64,000 bases of DNA from Ilyonectria destructans (taxonomy: Eukaryota > Ascomycota > Sordariomycetes > Hypocreales > Nectriaceae). The position numbers were made by a program, and so were the translations under genes. The notes under the pieces are model-generated. The model saw only the letters and a list, made by a program, of their open reading frames with translations. It was not told the DNA's origin and did not search any database. The stretch is from assembly GCA_020740775.1 (NCBI GenBank), contig JAHEWK010000010.1:1364001-1428000 (forward strand). Reading direction: 5' to 3'. Each line of letters begins with the position of its first letter. Positions within the stretch are counted from its first letter, which is position 1. Below, one piece after another: positions 8,813 to 47,326 of this stretch.

Positions 8813-10761
8813 ATGGCATCGCTGCTGAGACAAATTATCGCAGGTCCCAGAGCTCGTCATCCCGAGGCGGGGCTGGATCTCTGCTACGTGACGGACAATA
8901 TCATTGCCACGTACGTCTATATCTGATTCTGCCCCTTTGTTTGAACCCTTGGAGTTCTCTCGACTTCAAGCTTTTATTCAATTGCTAACGCGACTCGCTG
9001 CCTCGTTACAGATCCGGACCCTCGCAGACGTACCCGCAACTGGCATACCGAAATCCGCTCGACCAGCTCGTTACCTTCCTCGACTCGAAGCACGGCGACG
9101 ACTGGGCAATATGGGAGTTCCGTGCAGAAGGCACTGGATATCCCGATGATGCTGTCTACAATCGCATAAGGCACTACCCGTTCCCTGACCACCACCCACC
9201 GCCGTTCCGGTTAATGCCCATGATCATGGCGAGCATGCGCAACTGGCTACACGGAGGCGACCTGGGGGACGGCGGGGCCTTACATGAGGGACATGTTTCA
9301 ACCTCTCCAAACATCACAACTGGAAATTCTACAAGCGATGCGACAACAGGAGAGAAGCGAAAGAAGCGTGTTGTCGTTGTCCACTGCAAGGCTGGGAAAG
9401 GGAGAAGCGGCACCGCCAGCTGCAGCTACCTAATCGCCGAAGAGGGCTGGAAAGCCGAAGACGCCCTCGCGCGCTTCACGGAGCGGCGTATGCGACCCCG
9501 GTTTGGTGCGGGCGTGTCCATCCCATCTCAGCTCCGCTGGATCAGTTATGTCGACCGCTGGACCCAGGGTGGCAAAAAATACTTGGAACGACCCATTGAG
9601 ATTGTGGAAATCCATGTCTGGGGTTTGCGCAACGGAGTGAGGGTCGACGTGGAGGGCTTCGCGGACGAGGGGAAGCGGATAGAAGTGCTCCACACCTTCA
9701 AGAAGGAGGAGAGAGTGGTGGTGGATGCAACAAGGCCGGAAGAGGGCAGCATCAGTGACGTGATATGGGAGATGGCTGGATACGCAGCCAACAGACCGAA
9801 GGAAGAGGCGCCCGGCGAGGCGGATTTTGCAGGTTCCACAAATCCCAGCAAAGAAGAGACGAAGACAGTGGAAGACAGCAAGGACCAAGACAAGACGAAG
9901 GCGAAGGCTCTCACACACGCAAAATCGATCAAGCGGAAAGGCACAGCACTGCTCCATAAGGTCACTCCACCGGACACGAAACAACTCGCCGACAAGAACA
10001 AGAGCAGACTTGACGCCGTTGCCAGCACTTCTTCTTCCCGGACAGACGTCACTGAGTCAGCAGATCCTGAGCCTGGAGGCATGGCCGTCATCTTGAAGCC
10101 CATCCAACCCATTCGAATCCCCTACAGCGATGTCAACATCTCTGTCGAGCGGCGAAATAAGACACCCAAGAGCATGGGCTTAACTATGGTGACAGCGGTG
10201 GCACACGTCTGGTTCAACGCCTTCTTTGAAGGGCAAGGCCCGGAGCAGGATGGTCGACCATCGAACAGCGGTGTGTTTGGTATCGAGTGGGAAGCCATGG
10301 ATGGCATCAAGGGTTCCAGTAGAAAGGGTTCTCGCGCAATGGATCGCATTGCAGTTGTCTGGAGAGTCCCAGGCACCGGCAGTGCGGAAGAGGAACAGGG
10401 TGAGGTTGTCATGGAGCCGGCTGAAGGCCAGCCCGTGCCGCAGATGAAGGCAGCGGATTGGGGCGGCGCGAACAAAGACGATCTTGACAAGAATTTGGGT
10501 TTGCGCGTACAAAGTAATCATAGTGTTGATGTGAGCAAGGCCAGCAGTATGAAGAGCGAGGATGGGGACGAAACTGCGAAACAACCCCAGGATGAGGATA
10601 CAGGGTCGATAGAAGGTGTCAAGTCGAGCGGACCAATGGGAGAGGATCTAAGATCGGATGATGAAGGAAGCAAGGGCTTGGAGAAGGACGGGACAGAGAC
10701 GAAAGAGGATTCAGAACTCAAGGTTGGAGAAAAGGGGCCGGGAACAGAGGACAAGTCATAG
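8813..10761 (+). CDS. PTEN-type phosphoinositide 3-phosphatase
   Basis: A homologue of PTEN/TEP1, about 615 aa, expected to dephosphorylate PtdIns(3,4,5)P3. Exon 1 (8813-8910) encodes the PTEN N-terminus, MASLLRQIIAGPRARH then DLCYVTDNIIA. The intron 8911-9011 is GTACGT to ACAG, and exon 2 is 9012-10761. Exon 2 continues with YRNPLDQLVTFLDSKH and HYPFPDHHPPP. The P-loop HCKAGKGRSG lies near residues 155-164; animal PTEN has GRTG. A C2-like segment follows (IEIVEIHVWGLRNGVRVDVE). Two things are unusual: a polar insertion of roughly 35 residues just before the P-loop (GGDLGDGGALHEGH to EKRKKR), and a long acidic, Lys-rich disordered tail over roughly the last 300 residues interrupted by a piece returning to C2-like sequence. 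Cys, Arg and both P-loop Lys residues are present, so it should be active. Confidence 0.92.
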
Positions 10762-12623: not shown

Positions 12624-14041
12624 TCAATAATGTCTCCCTCTTCCTCTGTAGTGGCGTTCTCCTCGATACCCTCCATATGGGGCGCCACGCCGGTGATCTC
12701 CTCGGTCCCTGTGGTTGTGGCCGTGATATCCACCTCCCCTGTGGCCGCCTTCACGCTGAGGAGCCGGAGGAATCGGCTCCTCAACCTCGATCTCGTACTC
12801 CTCAAACTCTTCGTGGAAATGCTCCCGAACAGTTTCTTGCTCCCTTCGTGCGCTCTCGGGATCAAACACAAACCGCATGGTCCCGTCCTGCCCACGCGCC
12901 GTCCGCCTTCCTGATGCGTCTCCAATCATATTTGATGTCGTGACAGGTGAGGTTGCCGAGGCGGGGGTGGAAGGCTGTGGATCTTCTGCTTCGCATCGGG
13001 AACAGTGGAACAAGTATCGTGGCTCAAAGGCCTTCTCAAGATCGTTGTTAAGTCGGATCTTGATGTCGATAATCTTGTTGAGGTCGAACTGTGCCCCTAG
13101 CTTCGTTGACTTGTAATGCTGAGCGTATAGGTCCAGGATGTCAAGCATCGTTTCCATGACGGCGCCGCGGTGGTATTGGGGCTGTTTAGCTGCGAATTCG
13201 TGGACCTTTTCTACAGGCTCCTCTCGCATCAAGGCTGTGAGCTCCACAATGGCCATGACCATGGAGAAAGTCGTTCGCTTTATGGGCACAAAGGTCTTAT
13301 ACATGTCGATGCACATATCGTAGGCGGTCGCGAAGAACTCTTTGCCATCTTCCTTGCCCAGGATATTCCGGACAACTTTGACGAGCAACTTCTGAGGGTA
13401 CCGCGTTCGGAAATCAAACCCGATTGTTTCGAGAATGAGGCGTTCGAGACAGATGATGATTTTGCCCGGCGAGTCGAAGATCTATGCTGGTCAGCGGCTA
13501 GTAACAGCAGGCCGTTCCGGAATGCGTACCTTATCATCGGGTGTCGTCGCCTTCTCTGGGTTTTTGACATTGTATGCAGCCGCAAGAATCTCCTTAGATT
13601 TCTTGATGGTATCTTCCACCTTGCATGCCACAAAAAGAGAAGCCAGAGCGGCATCCTGGTAGTTGTACTCGGCGTCGCGGAAGTTGAGTCGAAACTTGTG
13701 GAAGTACGTGCACGCTGTATCGAAGGACCGGACAGGCCTGGCTTTCGTCAGTACTGGTCGCCAAAGGGCTTTGGGAACGTCTTGTCCGAGAAAAGTCCTC
13801 TCCGACAGCTGGGAACTCACAGTTGTAGGTACTCCCTCACATTCTCAATCAGCTGCACACCCTGAAGACGGTAGCTATCCTGTCGCGCCGGGTCGCAGCC
13901 GTTGTCCTTGAGCATGCGCCGGAGCTTTAGCTCAGTGGTGTATTGGTTGGAGCTGGAGATGAAGCCCGGATGAGGCCCGACCTTGGGGACGCTGTCGCCA
14001 TTGGTCGCGCTTGGAGGTTGATCTGGGTTTGAAGGCGCCAT
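12624..14041 (-). CDS. ctk2: CTD kinase subunit beta (cyclin Ctk2)
   Basis: A cyclin of the CTDK-I complex, which phosphorylates the RNA polymerase II C-terminal repeat in the nucleus, about 428 aa. Read on the minus strand, exon 1 is 14041-13821, exon 2 is 13737-13530 and exon 3 is 13481-12624. The introns (13738-13820 and 13482-13529) are GT-AG with a TACTGAC branch in the first, and phases close. The cyclin box includes ENVREYLQLPVRSFDTACTY, NYQDAALASLFVACKVEDT, IFDSPGKIIICLERLILETI and FDFRTRYPQKLLVKVVRNI. A long C-terminal tail ends in a Gly/Arg/His-rich stretch (HRGGGYHGHNHRDRGDHRRG), typical of an RNA- or CTD-associated factor. The start MAPSNPDQPP is the first ATG in frame after the CT-rich leader. 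Confidence 0.85.
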
Positions 14042-15076: not shown

Positions 15077-16801
15077 TTAGTGGAAGCGATTATTTAAAGC
15101 CTGTCCGAGAAAGCCAGCGGTGGAGCGGAAGAGCTGAGGAAGAGTTTCCCTGAGCGATGTGAACTGCTGGCCGTGCATCAACATTCGGATACTAAACACA
15201 GCGGCCGCTGGCAGCCCCACGAAATTCACAAGGGAGAACAACAACAGATCCAAGTTCTGAGCCTTCCACCATGGCATGCGCATATCAGCTGTTTGCAGGT
15301 GCATTGGTCGGGCGACTCGTAGCTCCGAGTCATACATGACCTCCTCGATCAGACCGGCGGCGAGGTGCTTCCTTCGAGATGCGGTACGGGCGATATTCTT
15401 CATACGTTCGACATTGCGCATGAAGGATTCGTTCGTTTCTTCGTTCAACAAAGTAGATATGTGAGCGGCAACCTCTTCAGCCGTAAATGTGTTCTTCTCA
15501 AGCTGCAAGCCCACACCTGCTTGCTCCATTCGTACACCGTTAGCAAGCTGGTCGAAAACAAAGCCTAGTACTATCACGGGTATGCCGTGGTACACCGCTT
15601 CGTTTGCTGAGGAGCCGCCAGCGTGAGTGATGAAGACCCTAGTGTGAGGGTGGTCTAGTATGGCGCGCTGCGGTGCGAATCTGGGGACCAGGAACTCTGG
15701 TACAGCCCCGTCAACCAATTCGCCCAAGGTGAAAGACTTTCCTTTGGCTCTGGAAACGGTTTGCCCGCGATCCAATCTATCAACATTGGCCTTGTTCAAA
15801 GCCCACACTACGCCGTTTACAGAACCAACATTAAGTGCCCGGACCAACCCAGCGAGTAACTTTTTAAAAGCTGGCTTCGGCAGCACAATGTTGGTGCCGA
15901 GGGCGACGTAAACAGTCCGGTTGTGAGTCTCAAGAAAACTGGCATGTCGCTCATCAAGGCCTGGATACTCATCTGCCAAGATAGGTCCCACGGCGGCCAC
16001 GAGCGGTGGCAGGTCCTTGGGAGTCTCGAGGCCAAAGAATGAGTTGACGAGCACAAGATGGTGTGGCCTAGGACCGCCAGGTAACATGGGGTACTTGGCA
16101 CCATTCTTCCAGCGGAGATTGGTAAACCAGCCAATCCAGGTAACAAAGTGAGGCACCGCCCAAACCACAGCCAGTTCGTTGCGCAGTCGTGACCACAGCG
16201 AAGCATGCTCTGAGGTCAGAGTCACATCAACCTGGAAGCCAGGTTGGCCGGGAATGTATGGTGCCGGCGCAAGCAGGTATGGCATCTGTGGCCAGACGAG
16301 TGCGATGGGGATATCGAGCTCGAGCATCATATCTTTGGTAAGGGCCTCGGCGAAGAAGTCGGCGAGGATAAAGTCGGGCCGTGTCTTAGGGTCGATGCAG
16401 AGTTCCTTCATACGCTTGTACGTCGCAGGCCAGAAAGAGTCCCAGAGGTACTTGGACTTCCACATACGGAAACTTCCAAGCGCGTCCTCTACTTTCAGAT
16501 CAACCATGCGCTCCCAATGCTCACGGAACTGCTCTTCCGTTGGACCGGGCCCGAGGTTGTAGACGGTCTTGATGAAGCCATAATTCTTGGTCCAGACCTC
16601 CTGTCCGTCGTGGGTAGCAAACTGGATTGTATGTCCCCGATCGGCGAGGACTCGACAGATGTCCAAGACAGGTGCTATGAGCAACTCAAGTCAGTGGTCT
16701 ATTTGGGGTTGCACTCGATGATGGTCCATACCCGCGTGCGTAAAACCGCCCGATGTCACTAGGGCCAAAATTGTCCTTTTGGGGGTATCTGGACTCATCA
16801 T
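15077..16801 (-). CDS. UDP-glycosyltransferase (GT1 family)
   Basis: A fungal GT1 glycosyltransferase of about 555 aa that should move a sugar from a UDP-sugar to a small lipophilic acceptor. Exon 1 (16801-16732) gives MMSPDTPKRTILALVTSGGF then THA. The 57-bp intron (16675-16731, GTATGG to CATAG) is followed by exon 2 (16674-15077), which continues APVLDICRVLADRGHTIQFA. The THA of exon 1 holds the likely catalytic His. The donor-binding signature is FITHAGGSSANEAVYHGIPV, followed by VIVLGFVFDQLANGVRMEQ. A C-terminal hydrophobic segment (NLDLLLFSLVNFVGLPAAAV) suggests membrane anchoring. It lies beside the relics of an acyltransferase and a reducing PKS, so it may once have glycosylated their product; that is inference from position. 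A second ATG at 16798 is an equally good start. Confidence 0.88.
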
Positions 16802-17589: not shown

Positions 17590-18055
17590 CTTGAGCTTTC
17601 ATCAGGCCCCGCCAGAGAAAGCCGCATATTATGTCATTTCCCAATACTCGGTCAGTTCCCGGCTGGTACACGTACTCCTTCTTGAGATCCGTGAAGCGTG
17701 AGGACAGGATATAGAAGATGCTAGTTTCATCACGCTCTTTCCATTCTCGACGCTATTTGGTTGGGAACCGTGTTCTTGGGGGGACCTCACACCAGTTCCT
17801 GGGGGTGGCAAGCTAAGTAATTGCCAAGTCGCGGGGTCTACTTCAGATGGTGACTTGTGAAGTGCCTCTTTGGCCCAGATTCGATCAAGAATCTCTCGAT
17901 CAGAGCTTTCCGATGGCAGAGTCAGACTATCTGAAGCGGCAATGTTGCGGCAGTTGTTGGCCCACAAGTTAAAGATGGTAAGAACTGCCACACCGTCACA
18001 GGTTGAATGCAATGTGGCACAAGCCAGAAGACAGGCACCTGGGATGAAAATTGCA
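17590..18055 (-). pseudogene. remnant of HXXXD acyltransferase (PF02458-type transferase)
   Basis: Read on the minus strand from about 18055, the translation gives IFIPGACLLACATLHSTCDG, then VAVLTIFNLWANNCRN. This carries the HxxxD motif (HSTCD) in the setting expected for BAHD/trichothecene acetyltransferase-like proteins. The frame then degenerates, and a different frame near 17740-17600 gives TSIFYILSSRFTDLKKEYVY, then GNDIICGFLWRGLMKAQ, the matching later part of the same family. A frameshift around 17750 therefore separates two parts of one gene. The N-terminal third is missing because the PKS remnant begins within tens of bases of the break. The fragment is non-functional as it stands. 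Confidence 0.75.
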
Positions 18056-18064
18056 GCTCAACAG

Positions 18065-19497
18065 ATACGAGGGCAACGTCGTGCATCGGGCGCTCACTGC
18101 CTCGGTGAAACTGTGCGCCGAGAAAGTCACACATCCTATCTATCCTCGGATCGTCTACCCGATGTCAGATATGGAGGCTGCATTGCGACAGATGCAGGCC
18201 GGAACCCATATTGGACGACTCATCCTCGTCCCACAACCCGGAGATCAGGTCAAAGTCATTTCTCGCCTCCAGGTTGTGAACTTGGCGAGCAATTCCAGCA
18301 CGTACCTAATCACTGGTGGTCTCGGTGGTCTTGGTCGCGCCATCGCACCCTGGATGGTCCAGAAGGGAGCCAAGAATATTGTCCTCGTTTCTCGAAACGC
18401 CCAGTCGCATCCTGGTGCTGCTTCTCTCATGCAGCAGGCCAAGGCCAATGGCTGTAATCTGCAAGTTCAAAATTGCGACGTGTCGGAGGAAAATAGTCTG
18501 CTGGAGCTTTTAGGGGACTGCGCTCACACAATGCCGCCGATTCGAGGAGTCGTCGCCGGAGCCATAGTCTTAAACGCAAGTTTCCACCCTTGTCTCTCAC
18601 ATCTCATCCCATGGTGTCACTATCTATACCCAATGTTGCTAACTTCCTGTTGTAGGACGCCATCCTGGAGCGAATGACATACGCCCAGTGGCGCCAGACC
18701 ACCCTTCCCAAGGTCGCGGGCACGATGAATCTACATAAACACCTCCCCAACCAGTCTTTATTATGCTCTCGTACTTTGCTGGCGCCTTCGGTCATTTATC
18801 TCAGGCCAACTACAATGCTGGAAACACATTACAGGATGCCCTTGCTCGACACCGGACCTCACTCGGCATGCCCGCCGTATCGATCGACCTAGCTGCAGTT
18901 AAGTCAGCTGGGTTTGTAGCTGAGGCAGATGACGCAGAGTGCGAGCGCATTCTGAAGAGCCTAGGCGAGGACGTCCTCGAAATTGACCACGTCCTGCGGA
19001 TCATCGAGACTGCCATCCGAGAGCCGTCGCGGGCCTCCCCTGATGATTGTCAGATCATCACCTGCCTAGCTCGTTACGGATCCATCATTGAAGGTTCAGC
19101 AAGTAAGCGATATCGCCGGTTTGCAACGGTGAGGATGGCGGACCGGACTGCCGTCTCCGATGGGCTGGCTGCAGGAAACACGGCGGATGCCACCACTGTG
19201 CTGATCCACACGTTTTCAAGTAGTGGTATTTCGCTGGTGGATGCGGCGAAGGCAATCGCTCAGGCGATCATTAGCAAGCTAGCAGACATCTTCAATATTG
19301 CGATGGCCGAGGTCGACGCCAGCTTGCCAATGTCGCACTACGGCGTAGACTCGTTGGTCGCGGTAGAGTTGAGAAACTGGCTGGGAAGTGCCGCAAAGGC
19401 CAAAGTATCCATCTTCACCATTCTCCAAACCCCCTCACTCACCGAATTTACCCCATTGGTAGCCTCAAGCAGTGAGTTTTTGAAGACAGAGGTATAA
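18065..19497 (+). pseudogene. 3' remnant of a highly reducing polyketide synthase (KR-ACP)
   Basis: The plus strand encodes the tail of an enoylreductase-type segment (PRIVYPMSDMEAALRQMQAG), then a ketoreductase Rossmann motif (TYLITGGLGGLGRAIAPWM). This is followed by DAILERMTYAQWRQTTLPKV, FAGAFGHLSQANYNAGNTLQ and an acyl carrier domain with the phosphopantetheine serine in HYGVDSLVAVELRNW. KS, AT, DH and most of the ER are absent. An apparent intron at 18576-18655 has a GC donor (GCAAGT) and a TGTAG acceptor with a GCTAAC branch, and joins phase 0. Near 18755-18770 the frame shifts (NQSL versus FIMLSYFAG), consistent with loss of a few bases. The stop is at 19495. It is a dead fragment of a metabolite gene. 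Confidence 0.85.
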
Positions 19498-22007: not shown

Positions 22008-24016
22008 ATGTCAACATTAAAAAAGGAACGCCTCGAGTCTTTGCTCGCCGAGCTTGGCGCAGATGCGATCCCAGCTGCCGCAGATCTCCCTGCTGTCCAC
22101 ATCCAAAGTCGACCAACCGACATCTATCGTGCTTATGTCGTCGACATCCTGGCAAAGGCAACCGATTGCGAAGCCTCGCTCATCTGCGACGCTGTACAAT
22201 CGTCGAATACGCTTCCACACGGTGACTTTTTATTACCGGTACCCCGTCTGCGAATCAAGGGAAAGAAGCCAGACAAACTGAGCGCCGAGCTTGCAGCAAG
22301 CTTTGATGGACATCCGCTACTCCAAAAGCCAGTGCCTAGCGGGATCCATCTACCGATCTTTTTTGCTCCACGACCTCTCCCACGACTCCTCCTCCCGTAT
22401 ATTTTCCAGCGAGGGAGTTATTACGGACACGACTCGGTCGTTGGCCTCCGTGACCCATCCGCGCCCCACCTCGGCCGCAAGAAGGTCATCGTCGAGTTCT
22501 CATCGCCTAACATCGCCAAGGAGTTCCATGCGGGGCATCTGCGTAGCACCATCATTGGTGCCTACATCGCGAACCTGTACAAGAGCATGGGCTGGGATGT
22601 GGTCAAGGTAAACTATCTCGGCGACTGGGGCAAGCAGTTTGGCCTTCTGGCCGTCGGCTGGGAGCGTTTCGGATCCGAGGCAGAGCTGGCTCGCGCGCCC
22701 CTCAAGCACCTGCTCAGTGTGTACGCTCGCATCAGTGCCCTCTTCAAGCCGGAGCAAGACGCCAGCAAGCGCGCGCGTGACCAAGGTCTTGATACAGCCG
22801 AGGTTGAGTCGCAAGGGCTGTTCGCCGAGCGCAACGCCTTCTTCTCCCGTATGGAAAATGGAGACCTGGAGGCAGTCGCGTTGTGGGAGCGCTTTCGCCG
22901 CATCAGCGTCCAACAGTATGAGTTGATGTATGCCCGTCTCAACATCGAATTTGATGTGTATTCTGGAGAGTCACAGGTTCAAACTGCCTCTATGGAAGCA
23001 GTTGAGAATCTCCTCTGGGAGAAGGGTGTGTACGAAGAGAAAAATGGGTCGTGGGTAATCGATTTCGAGAAGCACGGCTCTAAAGGTCTTGGCTTTGCCG
23101 TCGTGCGTGGACGCACAGGAACCACTACCTACCTCTTGCGAGATGTTGCTGCCGCGATTGAACGAGAGCAACTGTACAACTTTGACAAGATGATCTATGT
23201 CGTCTCCACGGAGCAGGACCTATACTTCAAGCGTCTCTTCAAAACCCTTGAACTCATCGGGCGCGCAGATCTGGCTTCCCGCTTGCAGCACATTAACTTT
23301 GGCAAGGTGGAGGGCATGTCTTCGCGACTCGGTAATGCCAAGTTGCTCGGTGACATCCTCGACCAATCCAATGAAGCAATGCATGAAGTGATGCGCCGCA
23401 ATACCAAGAAATACGCCCAGGTTGTCAATCCGGGGGCGGTTGCTGAAGCCGTGGGCATCTCCGCAGTCATGGTGCAGGACATGTCGGGCAAACGTATCCA
23501 CAACTACGAGTTCGACATGGCCCGGATGACGTCCTTTGAGGGTGACACTGGACCTTACTTGCAGTATTGTCACGCCCGTCTAAATTCCATTTTGCGCAGG
23601 GCAGAACTCACCAGCGCGGATCTTGCTGCATACCTGGCTGACAACCCAGTCGCGCTGGAAACAGATCTCGCCGAGAAACAGCACTGTGTCGACCTTTTGC
23701 GTCTGATGGCCCAGTACCCCGACGTTACCGCTACGGCTCTGGGGAACCTTGAACCATCTACGATATTAACCTACTTGTTTCGTTTGGCACACCAGCTCTC
23801 GTCCTGCTACGACGTGTTGCAGGTTGTAGGAGCTGAGGGAGGTCGAAACGTGATGCTTGCCCGTGCGGCCCTGTACGAGGCAGCTCGCCAAGTGTTGGAG
23901 AATGGGATGAAGTTGCTTGGGTTGAGCCCTGTCGAGAGGTATGACCCTGTTGCTCTTACTAGTCGCTCCCGTTCTTGGCATGGCGATCTTGCGCTAACCG
24001 TTGATCTAGGATGTAA
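22008..24016 (+). CDS. arginyl-tRNA synthetase
   Basis: A class I aminoacyl-tRNA synthetase of about 645 aa that charges tRNA-Arg. Exon 1 is 22008-23938. A 71-bp intron (23939-24009, GTATGA to ATCTAG, branch GCTAAC) splits the codon before the last residue, and the terminal exon is only 7 nt (24010-24016). It restores the C-terminus PVERM that ArgRS enzymes normally have. Visible parts are an N-terminal Arg-S additional domain (DIYRAYVVDILA), the HIGH motif as EFHAGHLRSTIIG (near residue 172), VNYLGDWGKQFGLL, the KMSKS-equivalent GMSSRLGN (near 434), DTGPYLQYCHARL, and an anticodon-binding DALR domain (RNVMLARAALYEAARQVL). No transit peptide is obvious, so the cytosol is likely. It may be a second ArgRS copy in an accessory setting; that needs the rest of the genome. 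Confidence 0.93.
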
Positions 24017-24751
24017 TGCTGAACTTCAGCCATGGTAGAGCAATGGTGCGTGGTAGTTCGGCTTATTATGGAGAAGTGCGGGCTAGACATGGGGTTTTTA
24101 GCGTCTTACATGATGTTCTCCTTCGTGGGCCAATAATCATGGCCATTGAGACATTGAATACTAATTATTTGCGACATTCGTTGTGTCAGGAGATGGAGAA
24201 ACGCTGGAGGATTTTTGATCTGAAGGACTCGGCCACAGGTCTACCGCCGTTGAACGCTCAATCCACTCTGTTTCGACCAGTTTCAGCGAAACATTAGCGG
24301 GCCAATCACCCAAAAATAAGGAGCATATTCCTCTATGCTCCATCACCTCCACGTAGTGCTGAGGGCGGTGCTTAATGCAAATTCTCAGTGGGCTCTAAAT
24401 ATGCATGCGTATTGCCTTGGCTGAAAGCAAGTTTACTACCGGTTTTATTCATGTCTTAGACATCTATCTGCTAATTGTAGGTACACACGCAGTAAGCACA
24501 GAGCACGGCATGAAGCTCGGCGCAGATGCAGCCACAGCCAAGCCAAATGCGGAACATCTCCACGCCGGGCTGGCCAATGGGGAGCTCCAAAGCTCGGGCT
24601 GGTGCCTTGCCACTGGCTCCCGTCGCATTTACCAGCGCCGGACGCGGGATGAATGCTGACGCCTAGATTCATCCTCAACCACTTCCCCGAGGGCTCTTCA
24701 GTTGCACACGAAGCTTCTGTTGCGACTCACATCCCATTTTAACACATCGCC
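24017..24751. other. intergenic
   Basis: This separates the ArgRS 3' end from the thioesterase promoter. Nothing else is supported. Confidence 0.55.
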
Positions 24752-38560: not shown

Positions 38561-38699
38561 TCCCCGATGGCGCAATTGGCTGTAAGTACATATCTGAATG
38601 ACCCACACTAAGAAGCGTACTAACGAGAAGAAAAGAGCGCGTCTGACTGTTACATCAGAGTTAATCAGGAGGTTGATGGTTCGAGCCCATCTCGGGGAG
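38561..38699 (+). tRNA. tRNA-Asn(GUU), copy A, with D-loop and anticodon-loop introns
   Basis: After removal of two insertions this folds as a perfect tRNA-Asn. The acceptor stem is TCCCCGA/TCGGGGA with discriminator G73 at 38699. The D-stem is GCGC/GCGC with D-loop AATTGGCTA, the anticodon stem TCTGA/TCAGG with loop CTGTTAA (anticodon GTT), the variable loop AGGTT and the T-stem GATGG/CCATC. Insertion 1 (38582-38635, 54 nt) sits between positions 20a and 21; it starts GTAAGT, contains TACTAAC and ends AAAAG. Insertion 2 (38653-38663, 11 nt) is at the normal nuclear intron site 37/38. The A box (TGGCGCAATTGG) and B box (GGTTCGAGCCC) are intact, and a T-run follows near 38720. The D-loop intron is not a known tRNA intron class to me. 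Confidence 0.85.
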
Positions 38700-39514
38700 T
38701 TGGAAGATCTTTGAGTGCTTTCTTTTTGACGGTGTTTCGGTGGGCATTTCGCCCCTCGTCAAAGGAGGGCTCAAACCCGAGATCTCCACCACGATGCGCC
38801 AAGTCACGTGTCGCTTGCTTTTTGATCAAGTTAAGAATTGAATGGATTCGGTACCCAAATGTACAATGAATGGAATTTCGGTCTTTGTGTTGTGAATGGT
38901 TGCTTGATGTTGGGGTTTAGTGACTGGATGTAGATTCGCCCACAGACATAACCTGGACAGGCAGTAGGGTTAGAAAAAATACATGCATGTAGTTATTTGA
39001 TAACACCTATCGAGGTAGGCCTAACCAACACTCAGTCTATTGAATCTCCCTGGCCGCTGGCGCATCACCAGCACGTGGCCGCATACTAAGAAACTGGAAA
39101 TCCGGGCCAGGAAGGGAAGTGGGAGAACTCCGATTAGCATGGAGGCCATCTTGTTACCGGTGTTTGTATTCTCGCCACAAATGAGGAATCCGGCGATAGA
39201 CATTAACCCTGCGTTCCAAGGTCGTCTCTCGGTCGGTGGTAGGTGCAGGTGGTGTCGGAGGTCCGATTTCCTTACTGGGCAATCTCGGACAGAATTGGGT
39301 TAGCGGCCGGGATGCGGTGGGGCCGGGCCGGACCGGACCCATGTTATCGAGGCAAAAAGGAAGGAAGGAGGAACCGGCTGGGTTGACCACGACGCCGCCC
39401 GCATCTTGACAACCGCACATCCACATATAGATCTATATATCCACGCACGACGGGTTCCTCGTCAACCAACGCCAAGAACTTGGTGGAAACATGCCGGGTT
39501 AGGGCAAAAATGAA
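38700..39514. other. intergenic
   Basis: No gene is seen. T-arm-like sequence around 38770 has no matching acceptor stem. Confidence 0.5.
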
Positions 39515-39605
39515 GGGTCTGGCCGGGGATTGAACCCGGGACCTCTCGCAAGCTAAGCTATAGGGTTTACCCTAAGCGAGAATCATACCGCTAGACCACC
39601 AGACC
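39515..39605 (-). tRNA. tRNA-Pro(AGG) with 19-nt intron
   Basis: On the minus strand the acceptor stem is GGTCTGG/CCAGACC with C73. The anticodon stem is CTCGC/GCGAG with loop TTAGGG-T (anticodon AGG), and the T-stem is CCGGG/CCCGG with loop TTCAATC. A 19-nt intron lies between 37 and 38 and contains ACCCT, able to pair with the anticodon, as nuclear tRNA introns do. A T5 terminator follows (A-run at 39506-39510 on the plus strand). Confidence 0.92.
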
Positions 39606-39944
39606 GGATCAACTCAGAGGAGCTGTTGTGGTTGAATCACGTGATGGTAGACGCTTCAGGATTGTCGTATACAGAGCTTTCTGATGATTATCTCTAGCCT
39701 TTAAGATGGTGTTGTGAAGGAATCTAGCGACGTTCTAGTATTCAAGAGAGGTACATTGGCACTGGAAATCGGATATGACAACCGTGGTTAATTAAATGAG
39801 ACAGTCTACGGCTTTTTTTTTTCCCTCCCTAAGATGTATGGATATGTCCGTTTGTTGGTTGCCTCAGCGAAAACTCTCCAGCCTGCGCCCATTCCAACTT
39901 GGTGCGATCTTTCACCCACATCCCTCATCAACAGCCAATCACAA
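39606..39944. other. intergenic
   Basis: Short spacer between two divergently oriented tRNA genes. Nothing else is seen. Confidence 0.5.
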
Positions 39945-40035
39945 TCCGGTATGGTGTAATGGCTAACATTTCGCGCTCTCATAACTTGAGAGAAATTGTT
40001 CCGCGGAGCTCAGGGTTCGATTCCCTGTACCGGAG
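39945..40035 (+). tRNA. tRNA-Glu(CUC) with 19-nt intron
   Basis: The acceptor stem is TCCGGTA/TACCGGA with G73. The D-stem is GTGT/ACAT, the anticodon stem TCGCG/CGCGG with loop CTCTCA-C (anticodon CTC), and the T-loop TTCGATT. The 19-nt intron at 37/38 contains TTGAGAG, complementary to the anticodon. The intron position is standard, unlike that in the neighbouring tRNA-Asn genes. Confidence 0.92.
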
Positions 40036-40774
40036 TGCAACTTTATAATTGTCAATTCGCCCTCTTGTTAAGAGCGACCGACTTCTTTTTGCTTGTAGAC
40101 GATCCTTACTTGGGCTGAGGCGATGTCGACGAAGCACAGAGAGAATGGTGACAAATACTCGTTGAGACAATTTCTGGTATCAATTGTTGACCTCTTTTAT
40201 CTTGCGTGAGTGAATTGGTAATTGGCTGACTACGTTGGGGGTGAAGTGAGAATTGCCGATTCTTGAGTTTTTGTGGTCATGAAGTTGCGCCGGGATGTGG
40301 AGGGAGGTGAGTGAACTGCGTGGGGTAGCAAAAGACATCGTTCCTTGAAAGAAGGTCGAACGGATATTGTCAAGTCGCTAATTTCCTGGAGCCATCGCCA
40401 ATCGCTTTTAGGAGAGGGTGGGAAACCGGGGGTAACGTGGAAAGAGAACAGTCTACATCGAAAAGTGTTCTAGGCGGGGGAGAGCGTAGGTGCTCGTATG
40501 GAAGAGAACGAGTCTCAAAAGAAGCCCGGCCGGGCAGACAGACATTCGAGTCGTACATACGTAACTTATCATGTGTGCAGTATGGCCGCCCCAAGAAGTG
40601 ATGGGAAAAGAAGAGTGTCTTATCTGATCAAGGTAAGTGTTTAGTTGGTGTGCCAGTGTCAATTGGGAAGGAGGTCACACGTGACATCACACCTCCAGCA
40701 AAAAGAAAGGCCGGATGCAACCAAAACCTCTCTACCAAGACGTTCAAAGAAAAAAAAGTAAATCGTAACATCTT
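40036..40774. other. intergenic
   Basis: No supported gene. An A8 run at about 40750-40757 is the Pol III terminator of the minus-strand tRNA-Asn that follows. Confidence 0.5.
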
Positions 40775-40901
40775 CTCCCCGAGATGGGCTCGAACCATCA
40801 ACCTCCTGATTAACAGTCAGACGCGCTCTGCCTTCTTGTTAGTACGCTTCTTAGCGTGGGTCATTTACACATGTACTTACAGCCAATTGCGCCATCGGGG
40901 A
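40775..40901 (-). tRNA. tRNA-Asn(GUU), copy B, with D-loop intron
   Basis: The mature sequence is identical to copy A: acceptor TCCCCGA/TCGGGGA, G73 at 40775, D-stem GCGC/GCGC, uninterrupted anticodon loop CTGTTAA and T-stem GATGG/CCATC. The 53-nt insertion (40828-40880) in the D-loop after 20a begins GTAAGT, has TACTAAC (40838-40844 on the complement) and ends GGCAG. There is no intron at 37/38. Downstream on this strand is a T8 run, a strong Pol III terminator. Confidence 0.88.
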
Positions 40902-41659
40902 CACGTTTTTAGTTGTGAGTGTGAATTTAAATTGCTACTATAAGGACCCGACCAACTATGCCGCACTAAGATCATAAGGCCCAATGATCATAGCATCAAA
41001 ATAAGTTAAAACCGACACATAATATCCTTCTAGGAAGACTGTCCTGCTTCAACTAGATGTTTACGACTTTGCCACAGGGGGCGGTGAAACAGTAAACAAG
41101 GTCCTCGTTTGTGCAAGGTATTAAAGCTGGGCCTTGTTGCACCCCGTGGTACAATTGGTACCCAGCACACTGGGTGGCAGAAACTGGATCTTAGAATGGA
41201 ATGCGCTCTTTCTAGACCCAAGTATATACGCAAGCGAGCACTGTTGAAGTTTTGCCCGCATAGTCGCGATGGAGACCAGTCCATGGACACGTGAAGGGGT
41301 GCGAGAGACAAATAGTAGTTGGATTGCATTCGGACACGGTCGCGATGTGAGCGGCTCTGTAAACGCTTGAAATGTAAGAGGTGAGTGAGTGTAGGGATGC
41401 TGAAAAGTATGTGTTCAAGAAAGTTGGCGCCGGGAATGAGAAAAGAGTGAGGAGGACATAGGGGAAAGACTGACTGGCTCATGTTGGAGAAGAGGCACCC
41501 AACAGGTTCCTAATCCAATCAGAGAAGGGGAGTGGTGAGGTTTATTAATGGAAGATGGAGACGTCAAGTAGTGGTGTGAATCGAGCATTGTGCACAGAAG
41601 AAATGAACCGTTGATTCAATTTACGAAAAGACTCATCCCGGGTGGGTGGCTGGAGCCTG
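40902..41659. other. intergenic
   Basis: No gene. A tRNA-like 5' string near 41152 (GTGGTACAATTGGTACC) lacks partner stems. Confidence 0.5.
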
Positions 41660-41940
41660 GTGTTCATTGTGGCTGTTGGAGGTAGGGACTATTATTCTAT
41701 ATCATGTCTCTTCTCTAGCCTTGGCACGAAAGGACCACTCAGTCATAGGCGTTAGGTGACCAAGAGAAGGCAGCAGCCAGTCAAACGGGAAGGATTATCA
41801 GATGTCTGCCAGTACCGCTAATCCCCAAGAGTCACCTGTTGACCACTCCATTGTCCGAACTCTTGTGATAATCTTACCTGCCGTTGGCGGCGTGGCTGTG
41901 AGTGTGCTTTGCACACGTTCGAGTTTGAGTTATTGAATGA
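41660..41940 (+). repeat. degenerate direct repeat, unit 1 (with 44100-44340)
   Basis: The sequence from TGGAGGTAGGGACTATTATT onwards is echoed at 44110 (TGGAGGTGGGGATTGTTATT). Both then share GCCAGTA and AGTACYGC-type blocks and CCAAGAG, and both continue to a GGCGGYGTSGTGGCT-like segment. Identity is low and patchy, as in an old duplication. No coding capacity is seen. Confidence 0.4.
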
Positions 41941-42199
41941 ACCGCGCTCCGAATATTTGGATTCGATACATCAACTGCTAATAGAACGCATAAACTGTAA
42001 CCCGTCTAAGTTTTGATACAAGTTGGACAAGTTAATGTTGTCGAGATGCCGACCAACGCACAAATGGTTAGAATAATAGCTGCTCAGACACATGGCCGAA
42101 TAGTTCATAAAAGAAGATTAGATTATGGAGTATAATTTGTGATACAGGTCAAGATGCACGCTTGCAACGCTTTGAGCGCCATGGAAATAATGGGGATGT

Positions 42200-42600
42200 T
42201 GGAAACAGGCCAGGCTGACAACATCAATGTTAACAGACAGAGCAGAAGTCTCAATGGCGTCCTTGTAAAGCTAGTCTTGCTCAGTGTAATGAACCTCCCC
42301 CAATGCTTATTTTCTTGCGGTAGTCATTGGCAGCAATCTGACGGAAGAAGATCAAGTCGTGCTTCTCAAGGCGAGCAGCGAGCTCAAAGGTCGTGGTGGG
42401 TGCTGTGGTTCGGGCCAGAGTCGCGCAGGGCTTTGTAGTCCTCCTCTTCAAGAACCGGGTCGTGCTTCTTGAGTCAAACAGCGAGCTCCACAGACACGTA
42501 CTCGAAGGCAAGATTGGGTCGCTGACCTTCGACATCAATGAAGCCGAGGTCGGAGTGGGAAACATCAAGAAGTTCTCGCTGCAGTACTCCACCTCGGTGA
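42200..42600 (-). pseudogene. clathrin heavy chain fragment 1
   Basis: The minus strand encodes FELAARLEKHDLIFFRQIAA then NDYRKK. In another frame further on it reads LYKDAIETSALSVNIDVV, the order found in the C-terminal clathrin repeats (LEKHxL-F-RxIAA, then SKQDKLYKDAIETAA). Frame changes and lost segments between these blocks show it is decayed. A second, independent fragment of the same region lies 0.8 kb away. Confidence 0.75.
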
Positions 42601-43074
42601 CAGCCTCCTTAGCATCTTCCTACATAAACGTGAATACAATTAGGCTATTATTACTCAGGTCCGCCTTCATTGTAGTGCAGTTGTCATTGTCTGGGTTGAA
42701 CTTCGTCCACCCCCACATGCGGTCATAGGACACACTGAGAGCTACATAGGTCACGAAAGGCGTGGGCTTGGTGCAATTGAGCTGACCACCACGTCATCAA
42801 GATAACGCTTCCGTAAGGTCTCTAAGAGCCGAACTGCAATGGCGCTGAAAGGTGCAGGTACTGTTAAATCAGTAGACGTGGATACGGTGCCTGAAGCGCA
42901 CCGGGATGCTGACGCGGAGACGTACCTCTTAGTCCGAGACGATCTTAAACCACCTGCACAGCACAGTCTCTATTATGGTCGTTGAGATCGCAATGTCTGC
43001 AATCAAGCTAGATGTCAAATTTAAAGTGAGATTTCAGGCCAGCAATCCACACCCTCGCTGACAACAACAACAAT

Positions 43075-43310
43075 ATTAGCAGACAGAGCGGAAGTGTCAA
43101 TGGCCTTCTTGTGAAGCTTGTCCGGCTTGGATATGGCAATTAACTTCTCCCAGCATTTATCATTGCGGTAGATGTTGGCAGCAATCTGGCTGAAGGAGAT
43201 TAGGTCGCGCTTTGCAAGACGAGCGGCGAGATCAACGGTATCGTAGCTGTCGTGGTTCTAGGCAGAGTCTCATAAGGTCTTGTTGTTATTCTCCTCATAA
43301 GTAGGTTCTG
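43075..43310 (-). pseudogene. clathrin heavy chain fragment 2
   Basis: One minus-strand frame reads VDLAARLAKRDLISFSQIAA, NIYRNDKCWEKLIAISK, then PDKLHKKAIDTSALSANI, clearly the same clathrin heavy chain stretch as fragment 1. Upstream in frame it has TGA and TAG stops (NKTL*DSA*NHDSYD, matching EEDYKxLRDS). It is a dead duplicate in direct orientation to fragment 1. Confidence 0.8.
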
Positions 43311-44099
43311 GCATCCTCGTTGGTAACATGCGTGTTCTACAACTAGACGTTGACAAGAAAGAGCTTGATGAGTATCAAGTCATCATTCTCCCAAACCATC
43401 TTTACGATACGGATGGCGTCGATGCAGGCGGTGAATATCGCAACCAGGTCATTGCGGGACGTGCCTCAGGTTCAGTCCCCATATCGTTGGCACCCGAGTT
43501 AACGTCATAGTGAGAATCGTATGGAATTTCGTCGGTGTTCCAAACCTGCGAGGGCTAATGAGCGGTCGCGTGACATGGTCACCCCATGTACGATACCGTA
43601 GGTGTGCAAGTGAATTGATGGAGGCATCTATATAAAGAAGGAATTTGATCTGGGTAGGGATTGCAGTAGTCCGTCCGGCGGCCAATATTAACGACCAGGT
43701 GATGCTCAAAAGCCTTTCGCTGACGCAGTAGCCGTTCAGTCTGAGGGTATCTAAAAATACCGGAATAATAGAGGAACTCCTCTATGAAGCGGTGGTAGTG
43801 TTCCGGGTGTTGTTGGTTAGGCCCCAGCTTGGGGGCGACTGTGAAACGATGCTGAGAGAGTACCGCCAGATTTCACTGCCTTCACCTCCCCCTTCACGTC
43901 GATCTCAGACACGCATCTTGCAGACATGAAAATGATATGAAGAAACTCCCCCCAGTCCCCATCCCCTCGAAAAAAAAGAAAGAAAAAGAGCAGTCAACCC
44001 GGGAACCTGGATCGAGGCCAGACACCGTATTGCGTCACTGGGGAAACGAGCAATAGCCAGTACAAGTTAATCCAGTCATACCATTATGCCAGTCGACCT

Positions 44100-44340
44100 C
44101 GTTCTTTTTGGAGGTGGGGATTGTTATTCTTCACTGTTACGTTCTTCTAACGTTGGCCCTGTAAAGCTGAATGGCCACTCGGCCACGGCCGTCGGGCAAC
44201 AAGGCACAGGCAGCGGCCAGTAATGATAGAACAACTTGAAGACTTCGGCAAGTACTGCAAATTTCCAAGAGATCCCTTCAGCAGCGGTTAGGAATTTCGC
44301 GACACGCTTACTTTCGGGCGGTGTCGTGGCTTTGAGCAGT
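44100..44340 (+). repeat. degenerate direct repeat, unit 2
   Basis: Second copy of the element described at 41660-41940, in the same orientation, with the clathrin fragments lying between the two units. Confidence 0.4.
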
Positions 44341-45191
44341 CTTTACCTTGGGAAGTGCTGGATCAGACAAACTCGCATGTATTGGATGCTGAGTTGTGCC
44401 TCAATGACTGAGAGTGGAAATATGGTTAGCAAGGGTCTGATCAACTGCTACGAGTTCGAAAGTTTGAGACTTTGAGTGGGTCAGAAAGAGTCTTGACACA
44501 TTTTCCTTATGCTGAGTCTTTTGGAGCAACGCTTAGCCAATGCTGCATCAATTGATTTCCTTTGTTGCACCTAGCTCTTTGAAAATCTTGACGACTTACT
44601 GTATGATCTTATGGCTCTTGCTCATTTAGTGTCGATTGCTAATCTAGTGATGGTAGGCGCCCGTATTGAAGCTGGTCTCAAGTGGTAAACACACGATCTC
44701 TACAGACCAAACAGAGATGATGTAGGTATGTGCGATTGTTTGAGCTAAAATATACCCTTTCCTGTTACAATGTCTACCTAAAGATGAGCTGTGCCTTCAT
44801 TTTGATGTAAAGTTGGAAACACAATATCGACGACTGGACGGAACACTAAAGGGCACTGTCCCAATAGTAATGCAGGTAGGTCTAGTGGTATTTATATCCA
44901 GATATAGGATTTTGAATGATAGCGTTTCTTTTTCTGTCTCATAAGAGTCTAAGGGTCAGTCGTTCGGATGACGGTGGCTGCCGGAGCCGGTCGGTAGTGG
45001 GGCCGGGTCTCCGACTTCTCGGGTTGACCGCTTCTGGTTTCTCAAAGGTCTACAGACAACCCTCGGACTGTGACGAATGCTCTTTCTCTTATGGTGTAAA
45101 TTTAGTTGTCCAATCGGTGTCGTAACCGCAATCAAAACATTTATACACAGATTTGAAATCGATGCAAAACACCTAAGAAAGTGGCAATTGA
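44341..45191. other. intergenic
   Basis: A+T-richer sequence without a gene. Confidence 0.5.
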
Positions 45192-45320
45192 TCCCCGATG
45201 GCGCAATTGGCTGTAAGTTACATCGATACTATTTCATGCAGGTCCACGTACTAACAAGAAGGTGAAGAGCGCGTCTGACTGTTAATCAGGAGGTTGATGG
45301 TTCGAGCCCATCTCGGGGAG
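45192..45320 (+). tRNA. tRNA-Asn(GUU), copy C, with D-loop intron
   Basis: The mature sequence is identical to copies A and B. The 55-nt D-loop insertion (45213-45267) begins GTAAGT, has TACTAAC at 45249-45255 and ends TGAAG; inside, it differs from the insertions in A and B. Joining 45212 to 45268 gives the D-loop AATTGGCTA and the D-stem GCGC/GCGC. No 37/38 intron is present. T-runs follow near 45340. The internal A and B promoter boxes are intact. Confidence 0.88.
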
Positions 45321-45682
45321 ACAGTGGAAGTCTCAACATTTTCCTTTTTGCGTTATTTAATGCTCTTTTTTTTTCTCGCGTAACATTCCTGGTTAGACAT
45401 CCTCCTCCCATGTACCTACTTCCTGTTAGATTTGATGAAGAGTACAAAGAAATAGCCGGGATAATGGTTGGAACCTCTGACTGCTGTTCTTCATCCCTGA
45501 TCCGGCTGGTTCTGTTGGCTCTGCTGTACCACACACCAATTCTTTTGGTGGTGGGCTCGAGCAGGGTGGTTGGTGCTACTAGCCCTCCTTGTCCTGAGCT
45601 GATATAATTCCCGTCAGGGCATGGGAGTAATTGACTCGTTGGTACGTTTCTATTTGTTGCCGACATGATATAAAACTGAAAA
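45321..45682. other. intergenic
   Basis: No gene. Opposite-strand open frames here simply read through the tRNA gene. Confidence 0.5.
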
Positions 45683-45701
45683 CCAATTGCGCCATTGGGG
45701 A
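45683..45701 (-). other. 5' fragment of a tRNA-Asn gene
   Basis: On the minus strand TCCCCAATGGCGCAATTGG repeats the first 19 bases of the tRNA-Asn genes with one change. The rest of the tRNA is missing. Flanking sequence (a GGAYAC-GTTTA motif, then AAGGACC and CCAAC) resembles that beside copy B, so it is a truncated duplicate. Confidence 0.6.
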
Positions 45702-46400
45702 TACATGTTTACTGCAAAATTCCTTCCAAACTACAACCACAAGGACCAGCCAACCAAGTTCCCTACCCTAGGTCGAGAGCTATATCCTGCCTCGGGGTCA
45801 TCGCAATTCTAACTTCCAGCTGATTCAGTACTCACTCACAATGCTGTTCCCAAGGCCCCTGATGGAGGTGGAGAATGGATCTTGCAGAAGTCACGTTGAA
45901 TATATATATGCCACTAGTTCCCTTGACTAATCATTAGGTCTTCAAGGCCATCATAGCTTCTAATAACTACTTTGTGAAGGAGGCACTATAATGCCGTAGC
46001 AGCTCTTGTCACTATGGTTCCCATATTGCCAACAGCCCTTATCAAGAACACTGTATTAAATTTTACCAGATGACTCTATACCCTCCCATCTCTCGGCATA
46101 GCCTACTTTACTTATTGTTCCTTACCCTGCTGTTGGTGGTAACATTTGCTGTCCATTGAGTGAGGTTTGCACCAAGTGTGTCTCCCACCAACAAAGAATG
46201 CAGAACCCGTGCACCTAGGGCTCCCAATCGTCAAACTTTGAATCCTCAGTCATGGCCAAACCTGACTCATTGTCTTGGAAGCTGGGGGTGACTTGATCTG
46301 CCACTTGGGTGCTGTAAAGTGCATCTTCTGACGTCTCTGGAGATGGAGGGTATATATGCTACAAATTCTTTGCCCAACTCCAACCAATTGGAACCGTTCC
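45702..46400. other. intergenic
   Basis: No gene is seen. Confidence 0.5.
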
Positions 46401-46536
46401 TCCCCTGTGGCTTAGTTGGCTGTGAGTTACATCAACATTCCATGCAGGTCCAAGTACTGACAAGAAAAACAGAAAGCGTCCGACTGTTATTCAATAGACA
46501 ATCGGGAGATCGGAAGTTCGACCCTTCCCGGGGGAG
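46401..46536 (+). tRNA. tRNA-Asn(GUU), copy D, divergent body, two introns
   Basis: A different isodecoder whose stems are changed but still pair. The acceptor stem is TCCCCTG/CGGGGGA with G73, and the D-stem GCTT/AAGC. The anticodon stem is TCCGA/TCGGG with loop CTGTTA-A (anticodon GTT), and the T-stem GGAAG/CTTCC with loop TTCGACC. The D-loop insertion (46422-46472, 51 nt) has donor GTGAGT, branch TACTGAC at 46455-46461 and end AACAG. A second, 11-nt intron (46490-46500) lies at 37/38 and contains CAAT, able to pair with the anticodon. A T5 run follows near 46550. Covarying stems argue that this gene is, or recently was, functional. Confidence 0.8.
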
Positions 46537-47326
46537 CAGTTTATTTCCTTTTTGTGGAATTTTCAGTTTCATTTTTGGTGGGTGAAACTAGCAGCATTTT
46601 GACCTACAACCCCTGCAATAGAAAGCGGGGAGCTCAAGACTATAAACAAGAGTACCAGTTATTCTAGGAATCATTGGTCTTTGGGGATTATTGGTCTTTA
46701 GGGATCCAAGGCCAAGGCGGGTTCTTTGGCTTTTGCCGAGGATGGAGCTACCAGATGCAGGCCAATATCGGCAAATTAAAGGGACTAACAGCATTGTTAG
46801 TAGTACTTGCTGACGCTGCAAATGAGTTATCTTCTTGCCAAGTTGAGTAGACTGAACAAACGCGTCTTGGTTGCTGTTCGGTTGCAAAGGCGCTGCGAAG
46901 GTGCTGCGAGAGGCTAGTTGAACAGAAGAAGAGAGGAAGAGACTCTGCAGAAGTCCTGTTGAACTCGAGTGGTTCCGAATAGAGTCTGCTTTCTAACTTG
47001 AGAAAAATACAAATTATTTTTATTTAAGGTGATTTTATTAAACGGATATTTGAGGTGCGTTGTTGATGATTATCTTAGGATTGGGGGCATGTGGTTGTGT
47101 GCAGATCAGCTGGTATTCGGGGATCTAAGTGATGGGAATACCAGAACATGATGACCTTGACTCAATTGTGTGATGTTTCCTTGATTATGTATCCGCTGGT
47201 TACGGATGGATCTATTTGAAGAAATATTCTAGCTCCTCCCAGTTCCTCGGCGCAGTGTCTATCTCCAAAGCACAGCGCGTCTAATATCATCATCTTATCG
47301 GGTATCCAGGTCCAAAGTAACGCCCT
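46537..47326. other. intergenic
   Basis: Spacer before the 3' end of dim-2, A+T-rich around 46990-47040. No gene is seen. Confidence 0.5.

Follow-up and report, generated by a model that had tools for sequence, protein, structure and literature searches.

Of the six tRNA-Asn(GUU) genes recovered from the genome of the filamentous fungus Ilyonectria destructans, five are interrupted in the D-loop by an insert of 51–56 nt, and the insert is likely an mRNA-type intron that the spliceosome would remove, at the junction of positions 20a and 21, from predicted RNA polymerase III (Pol III) precursors. Judged from sequence, this reading is given a probability of about 0.8. The window, that is, the whole 64,000-nt stretch analysed (C2:1364001-1428000, where C2 is contig JAHEWK010000010.1), holds four of the interrupted genes, A to D, and the genome searches covered the 71.67-Mb assembly of 74 contigs. 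An earlier note on this DNA, made from the letters alone, had described the four window genes, the insert site at 20a/21 and insert lengths of 51–55 nt, all of which were confirmed (54, 53, 55 and 51 nt in A to D); it had missed canonical introns at 37/38 in genes A and D, a fifth interrupted copy, E, and an uninterrupted copy, F. By the tests on sequence, a spliceosomal intron is a better reading than either an intron of the tRNA-endonuclease kind or dead genes, because the spliced exons match F exactly, all five inserts keep their signals, a dead copy has lost them, no bulge-helix-bulge (BHB) was found at the junctions and a U6 gene of the same genome carries an intron of the same style. On the same grounds the proposal of the earlier note, that the spliceosome removes an intron from Pol III tRNA precursors, is supported.

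The tRNA-Asn genes and their inserts

In all five interrupted genes, the insert lies between 20a and 21. Gene A (38561..38698, plus strand) consists of an exon at 38561-38581, the predicted mRNA-type intron at 38582-38635 (54 nt), an exon at 38636-38652, a 37/38 intron at 38653-38663 (11 nt) and an exon at 38664-38698. Gene B (40776..40901, minus strand) has exons at 40901-40881 and 40827-40776, separated by the predicted mRNA-type intron at 40880-40828 (53 nt), and in gene C (45192..45319, plus strand) the exons at 45192-45212 and 45268-45319 flank such an intron at 45213-45267 (55 nt). Gene D (46401..46535, plus strand) is a diverged isodecoder, with exons at 46401-46421, 46473-46489 and 46501-46535, the predicted mRNA-type intron at 46422-46472 (51 nt) and a 37/38 intron at 46490-46500 (11 nt); A and D are thus the two genes with an 11-nt canonical intron besides the D-loop intron. 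Copy E (C2:1534892-1535020) has an insert of 56 nt, and F (C2:1538544-1538616) is uninterrupted. The interrupted genes all lie on contig C2, where they form two clusters separated by about 125 kb.

A genome search with the spliced 73-nt sequence recovered A, B, C, E and F; D was recovered with its own sequence as query, and a second copy of D was not found in the genome. Two pattern searches of the genome for Asn genes returned 75 and 25 rows, with 72 and 48 in the respective controls. Inspected by eye, the rows include no Asn gene other than A, B, C, E and F; the B box of D falls outside both patterns, and interrupted genes with quite different exons would escape them. Four doubtful rows of the 75-row search were given no tRNA call by ARAGORN, and by eye none is an Asn gene. 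A search of the genome with an 18-base junction, allowing up to two mismatches, gave six matches (A, B, C, E and two more) against one in the control. The possibility raised earlier that every Asn(GUU) gene of the genome is interrupted holds for five of the six genes found and fails for F.

All five inserts start with GTRAG[TC], carry CTRAC with the branch A 11–13 nt before the end, and terminate in AG. Introns A, B and C begin with GTAAGT and share the branch sequence GTACTAAC, with the branch A 12, 11 and 13 nt from the 3' end and AAG, CAG and AAG as the respective acceptors; intron D reads GTGAGT, GTACTGAC and CAG, and intron E reads GTAAGC, AACTAAC and AAG, and in both the branch A lies 12 nt before the 3' end. 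For A to D this agrees with the earlier description (GTAAGT or GTGAGT starts, TACTAAC or TACTGAC 10–12 nt before the end, AG ends). The 5' splice sites (GTAAGT three times, GTGAGT and GTAAGC once each) fit a U2-type site near GTRWGT in five of five cases, and the branch sequences (ACTAAC four times, ACTGAC once) all fit the consensus RCTRAY, located 6–36 nt from the acceptor, given in the available text of a study of fungal U3 introns (PMC5832005). From base composition, the chance of the joint signals is about 1e-6 per insert, and shuffling gave 1 in 1,000,000 (5 x 200,000). The spacing from GTRAGY to CTRAC in 152,870 bases of the fungus's own genome was weakly informative, with 13 cases against 4 in the reversed control at 30–39 nt and 29 against 24 over a wider range.

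By identity, the inserts form the groups A/B/E (72–85%) and C/D (78%), with 45–60% between groups. Among the six insert pairs without D, 0 of 12 core positions differ, and the remainder differs at 7/41 to 14/40 positions (gaps set aside). Each of the four pairs that include D has 2/12 core differences (GTGAG and CTGAC, both A/G changes that the consensus allows), and the differences from D outside the core amount to 4/38 (C), 6/33 (B), 8/34 (A) and 14/37 (E). Both variant motifs of D occur in one coding intron of the window, and both are within the fungal consensus.

Removal of the inserts leaves the D-loop AATTGGCTA (AGTTGGCTA in D) and a complete 4-bp D-stem, which reproduces the earlier result. 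The spliced forms of B, C and E are identical to F at 73 of 73 bases, as is A once its 37/38 intron is also taken out. With the 37/38 introns of A and D removed as well, all five spliced forms have 21 of 21 stem pairs of the cloverleaf. A covariance model of the mature tRNA places A to D, each with a long D-loop insertion, at 72.8–86.2 bits; it was built from F and spliced D, so that this is a placement check and not independent proof. Although 20 of the 73 positions of gene D depart from the main isodecoder, all 21 stem pairs are kept, eight of them with changes on both sides; such two-sided changes numbered 0–1 in slid controls and 4.1 on average in shuffles, of which 2 of 500 reached eight, although only two sequences are compared and the shuffle figure is rough. 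Because D keeps its 21 pairs despite 20 differences, it is, to judge from this isodecoder, the mature (spliced) form that selection sees.

A dead partial copy at 45635..45701 (minus strand) consists of the 5' exon followed by a decayed A-type intron. No 3' exon was detected in it, the best alignment being equalled by 425 of 1,000 shuffles. Its intron traces are assigned to the A type by the number of shuffles, of 2,000, that align as well: 4 for A, 118 for B, 613 for E, 682 for C and 1,306 for D. The signals in this copy are gone, with GTAAGT changed to TTCAGT and CTAAC to CCAAC. The dead copy points the way expected of a spliceosomal intron; as a single case, it is an anecdote.

Transcription, the proposed route and the same intron style elsewhere

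The A box, TGGCGCAATTGG (TGGCTTAGTTGG in D), occupies positions 8–19 and ends upstream of the insert, and there is an intact B box, GGTTCGAGCCC (AGTTCGACCCT in D). A run of five or more T begins 13–26 nt past each of the six genes; in the window these Pol III-type terminators are T5 at 38723..38727 (A, plus strand), T8 at 40757-40750 (B, minus strand), T5 at 45345-45349 (C, plus strand) and T5 at 46549-46553 (D, plus strand). Runs of at least four T are absent from all five inserts but present in two of three coding introns from the window (small numbers). Since both boxes and the T runs are intact and the inserts lack such a run, Pol III transcription of the genes is likely.

It is proposed that Pol III reads through the insert, which contains no stretch of four T or longer. 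U1 and U6 would then pair with GTRAGY, and the branch A of CTRAC would attack the 5' site; a cut at the AG 11–13 nt beyond the branch would join GGCT to A(G/A), giving the D-loop described above. Removal of the 11-nt 37/38 intron from A and D would be left to the tRNA endonuclease, and because these two genes carry both kinds of intron, they likely need two unrelated splicing machines. The intron probably spread by local gene duplication, and F may have lost it precisely or may never have had it.

A further case was found in the U6 small nuclear RNA (snRNA). In Schizosaccharomyces pombe, U6 has an mRNA-type intron in a Pol III gene, with the B box within the intron. The U6 gene at C1:6743874-6744043 (minus strand) of the present genome has a 66-nt mRNA-type insert, GTAAGC ... 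TTTACTAAC ... CACAG, between ACAGAGAAGAT and TAGCATGG (TAGC), with the branch A 11 nt from the end and a B-box-like GGTTCGAACCC inside. The genome search gave three U6 matches, 47 of 4022 candidates having been scored; the two other matches are uninterrupted and continuous across the joined junction, and their 5' end is different. The interrupted gene means that a second RNA, made by Pol III in other fungi, carries an mRNA-type intron in this genome.

Three coding introns of the window, defined by homologues, served for comparison. The gene of a CTK2-like cyclin (12627..14041, minus strand; 87% to Neonectria punicea, behind a 96% match) has two, one of 83 nt with GTGAGT, TACTGAC and CAG, the branch A lying 10 nt from the end, and one of 48 nt with GTACGC, GCTGAC and TAG, where it lies 9 nt from the end. 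The gene of a PTEN-like phosphatase (8813..10758, plus strand), whose protein is 97% to I. robusta, has a single intron of 101 nt with GTACGT, GCTAAC and CAG, and its branch A is 23 nt from the end. The named matches of these two proteins put the genome close to Ilyonectria in the Nectriaceae.

Among 5S ribosomal RNA (rRNA) genes, 47 of 47 scored matches are uninterrupted and 120 nt long, of 3874 candidates among which interrupted ones could be unscored. A genome search for an A box followed by GTRNGT gave 34 matches against 82 in the control, and four of them are A to D. The other 30, taken with about 150–180 nt behind them, have no GTTCRA downstream and do not match the tRNA-Asn model, and the 20 of these 30 that were searched against Rfam gave no match. 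No other tRNA type with an A box and GTRNGT was found in the genome; other isotypes with GTAAGC-like 5' sites or other insert positions may escape this pattern, since it missed E, which starts with GTAAGC. Eight of the 30 matches belong to one repeat, with at least eight genome copies, that contains TAGYCCAGTCGGAAGTAAGT; it resembles an A box plus a 5' splice site and has no B box behind.

Competing explanations

The first debatable issue is whether the interrupted genes yield any tRNA. If they were silent, the inserts would be fossil introns and F would supply all tRNA-Asn. The earlier note had named uninterrupted genes elsewhere as the case that would overturn its reading, and one such gene does exist, as the single copy F; it is intact, has a terminator and could in principle supply the main isodecoder, though the D isodecoder is beyond its supply. 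According to the available text of one survey, D-arm insertions in eukaryotic tRNA genes mostly concern a single copy among many and are regarded as marks of pseudogenes (PMC4090602). Here, however, five of six genes are interrupted and not one among many, relative to F there is no mutation in the exons of A, B, C and E, and D keeps its 21 pairs through eight two-sided changes, while the signals are kept in five of five inserts and lost in the dead copy. A single Asn gene would also be few beside the three largest tRNA groups among the rows of the 75-row search, which, identified and tallied by eye, are Lys-like (12 loci), Val-like (9) and Leu-like (8); this argument is soft, because that row list is no census and other tRNA types in it show only one to four rows. 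Silent genes are therefore an unlikely explanation.

Removal of the D-loop insert by the tRNA splicing endonuclease, as in Cyanidioschyzon and perhaps in nucleomorph tRNAs, is very unlikely. Endonuclease-tied D-loop introns are described for the red alga in the available parts of two papers (PMC3978253, PMC4090602), the canonical 37/38 introns of A and D would be substrates for the same enzyme, and cloverleaf-constrained folds give short extensions of the D-stem across the insert in A, B, C and E. No such extension is formed in D, and the junctions show no BHB, the best central helix having three of four pairs, a value equalled by 90–96% of shuffled inserts. Moreover, an endonuclease model predicts neither GTRAG, CTRAC and AG nor a constant distance from the branch to the end. 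It is likewise improbable, and to a similar degree, that the spliceosome acts on read-through transcripts of RNA polymerase II (Pol II) instead of Pol III precursors. Pol II transcripts are the usual substrates of the spliceosome, and sequence cannot reveal the polymerase of a precursor, but all six genes have an intact A box, B box and T run, and B lies on the strand opposite to A, C and D. The absence of a four-T run from the inserts, set against its presence in two of three coding introns, and the same intron style in U6, another gene of Pol III kind, also speak against Pol II precursors.

Several points weigh against removal by the spliceosome from Pol III precursors. The uninterrupted gene F exists, and the folded tRNA core could hinder spliceosome assembly. 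The acceptors are CAG in B and D and AAG in A, C and E, so that three of five depart from YAG, the form preferred at acceptors in fungi, whereas all three homologue-defined coding introns of the window end in YAG and, in the available text on fungal U3 introns, the acceptors are YAG in all but one (PMC5832005). A possible competitor is the AG that precedes the acceptor in introns A, B and C, 7 nt past the branch A. The conservation of the core is not uniform, as between C and D it is not better kept than the remainder (2/12 versus 4/38 differences) and for B and D the two are on a par (2/12 versus 6/33). Because the interrupted genes share one contig and ancestry, they do not represent five independent gains. 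Folds of the whole precursor RNAs were uninformative, with z from -0.48 to -1.90.

Other origins of the inserts were rejected. A self-splicing group I or II intron would be too large for 51–56 nt, and an Rfam search of the window, with A to D in it, gave only two tRNA matches. As for introner-like elements, intron A as query matches only A, B and E in the genome and intron C only itself; the search missed the 78% intron of D and so excludes near-identical copies only. An assembly error is countered by the occurrence of five diverged inserts at a single site and on both strands, and a chance origin of the signals was dismissed at about 1e-6 per insert.

Known systems, significance and neighbouring features

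A close parallel is the U6 intron of S. pombe and other fungi, where a small structured RNA made by Pol III likewise has a spliceosomal intron; the interrupted U6 gene of this genome has GTAAGC, CTAAC and an 11-nt spacing. U6 differs in not being a tRNA, and its intron here holds the B-box-like sequence, of which the tRNA introns have none. Introns of the fungal U3 small nucleolar RNA (snoRNA) are also of mRNA type and lie near the 5' end of a structured RNA, and copies with and without an intron occur in one genome, including those of Fusarium and Nectria, as far as the available text describes them (PMC5832005). In contrast to the Asn genes, U3 is presented there as a capped snoRNA with a TATA/Homol D promoter and a mean intron of 92 nt with the YAG acceptors mentioned above; the abstract of the same paper nevertheless calls U3 polymerase III-transcribed (PMC5832005).

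Canonical nuclear tRNA introns, at 37/38 and removed by the Sen endonuclease, also interrupt a pre-tRNA, and A and D have one too; they lack conserved splice signals, whereas the Asn inserts sit at 20a/21 with GT, CTRAC and AG. The statement of the earlier note that nuclear tRNA introns sit at 37/38 needs to be qualified, since ectopic D-loop introns are known in nuclear-type tRNA genes of Cyanidioschyzon and nucleomorphs; in the available parts of the sources, none of these is linked to the spliceosome (PMC4090602, PMC3978253). Those of Cyanidioschyzon are tied there to a BHB and the splicing endonuclease (PMC3978253, PMC4090602), unlike the Asn inserts with their spliceosomal signals and no BHB. 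Nucleomorph introns are given as 3–24 nt long, with the enzyme left open, compared with 51–56 nt here.

The available text of the 2017 fungal U3 paper names U3 and U6 as the only small structured RNAs so far known to be often interrupted by introns (PMC5832005), and that of the tRNAscan-SE 2.0 paper describes a limit of one intron per tRNA gene in eukaryotes (PMC8450103). No report of a tRNA with a spliceosomal intron was found in openly licensed literature, by title or the start of the abstract. Introns of this type are already known, also from an RNA made by Pol III, U6; the new part is the tRNA substrate. In a collection of viral contigs with few fungi, the exon–intron junction had no match, and the whole intron frame matched nine stretches, none of them a tRNA by eye; in prokaryote contigs, again with few fungi, 31 stretches match the 18-base junction, none a tRNA by eye. 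A loose B-box flag was raised for 5 of these 40 stretches, and all 5 look like coding DNA; neither collection thus yielded a relative.

Textbook tRNA splicing is the work of protein enzymes, apart from the spliceosome. In Ilyonectria, it is probable that the spliceosome matures Pol III tRNA precursors, which would add a further class of tRNA intron; most genes of one isotype would depend on it, two of them would need both machines, and translation of asparagine codons would be coupled to the spliceosome. If this is true, the spliceosome can handle a Pol III RNA that is uncapped, short and tightly folded, and can finish before or despite tRNA folding, and an essential tRNA of this fungus has become tied to mRNA splicing. 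A further lesson is that tRNA finders overlook such genes: ARAGORN (bacterial code) calls F tRNA-Asn and misses all four window genes as well as E, and the Rfam tRNA model, in a gathering search of the window, finds two of the four as fragments and nothing else.

Two other tRNA genes, recognized by eye, lie near the Asn genes. A tRNA-Glu(CUC) with a 37/38 intron at 39945-40035 (plus strand) is labelled tRNA-SeC by ARAGORN, and a tRNA-Pro(AGG) with a 37/38 intron, near 39531-39607 (minus strand), is missed by both ARAGORN and Rfam. Between the tRNA genes, the stretches 42218-42391 and 43064-43239, about 850 nt apart, are 81–83% identical and apparently represent decayed duplicated coding sequence. 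Farther away, an arginyl-tRNA synthetase-like gene at 22008-24023 (plus strand) is, among the named matches, 82% to Cylindrodendrum and 74% to a Chaetomium. Polyketide synthase fragments (KR and ACP, at 18048-19497) lie about 2.5 kb from it, with a glycosyltransferase nearby (15080-16690, minus strand), and the synthetase-like gene is possibly a cluster-borne copy.

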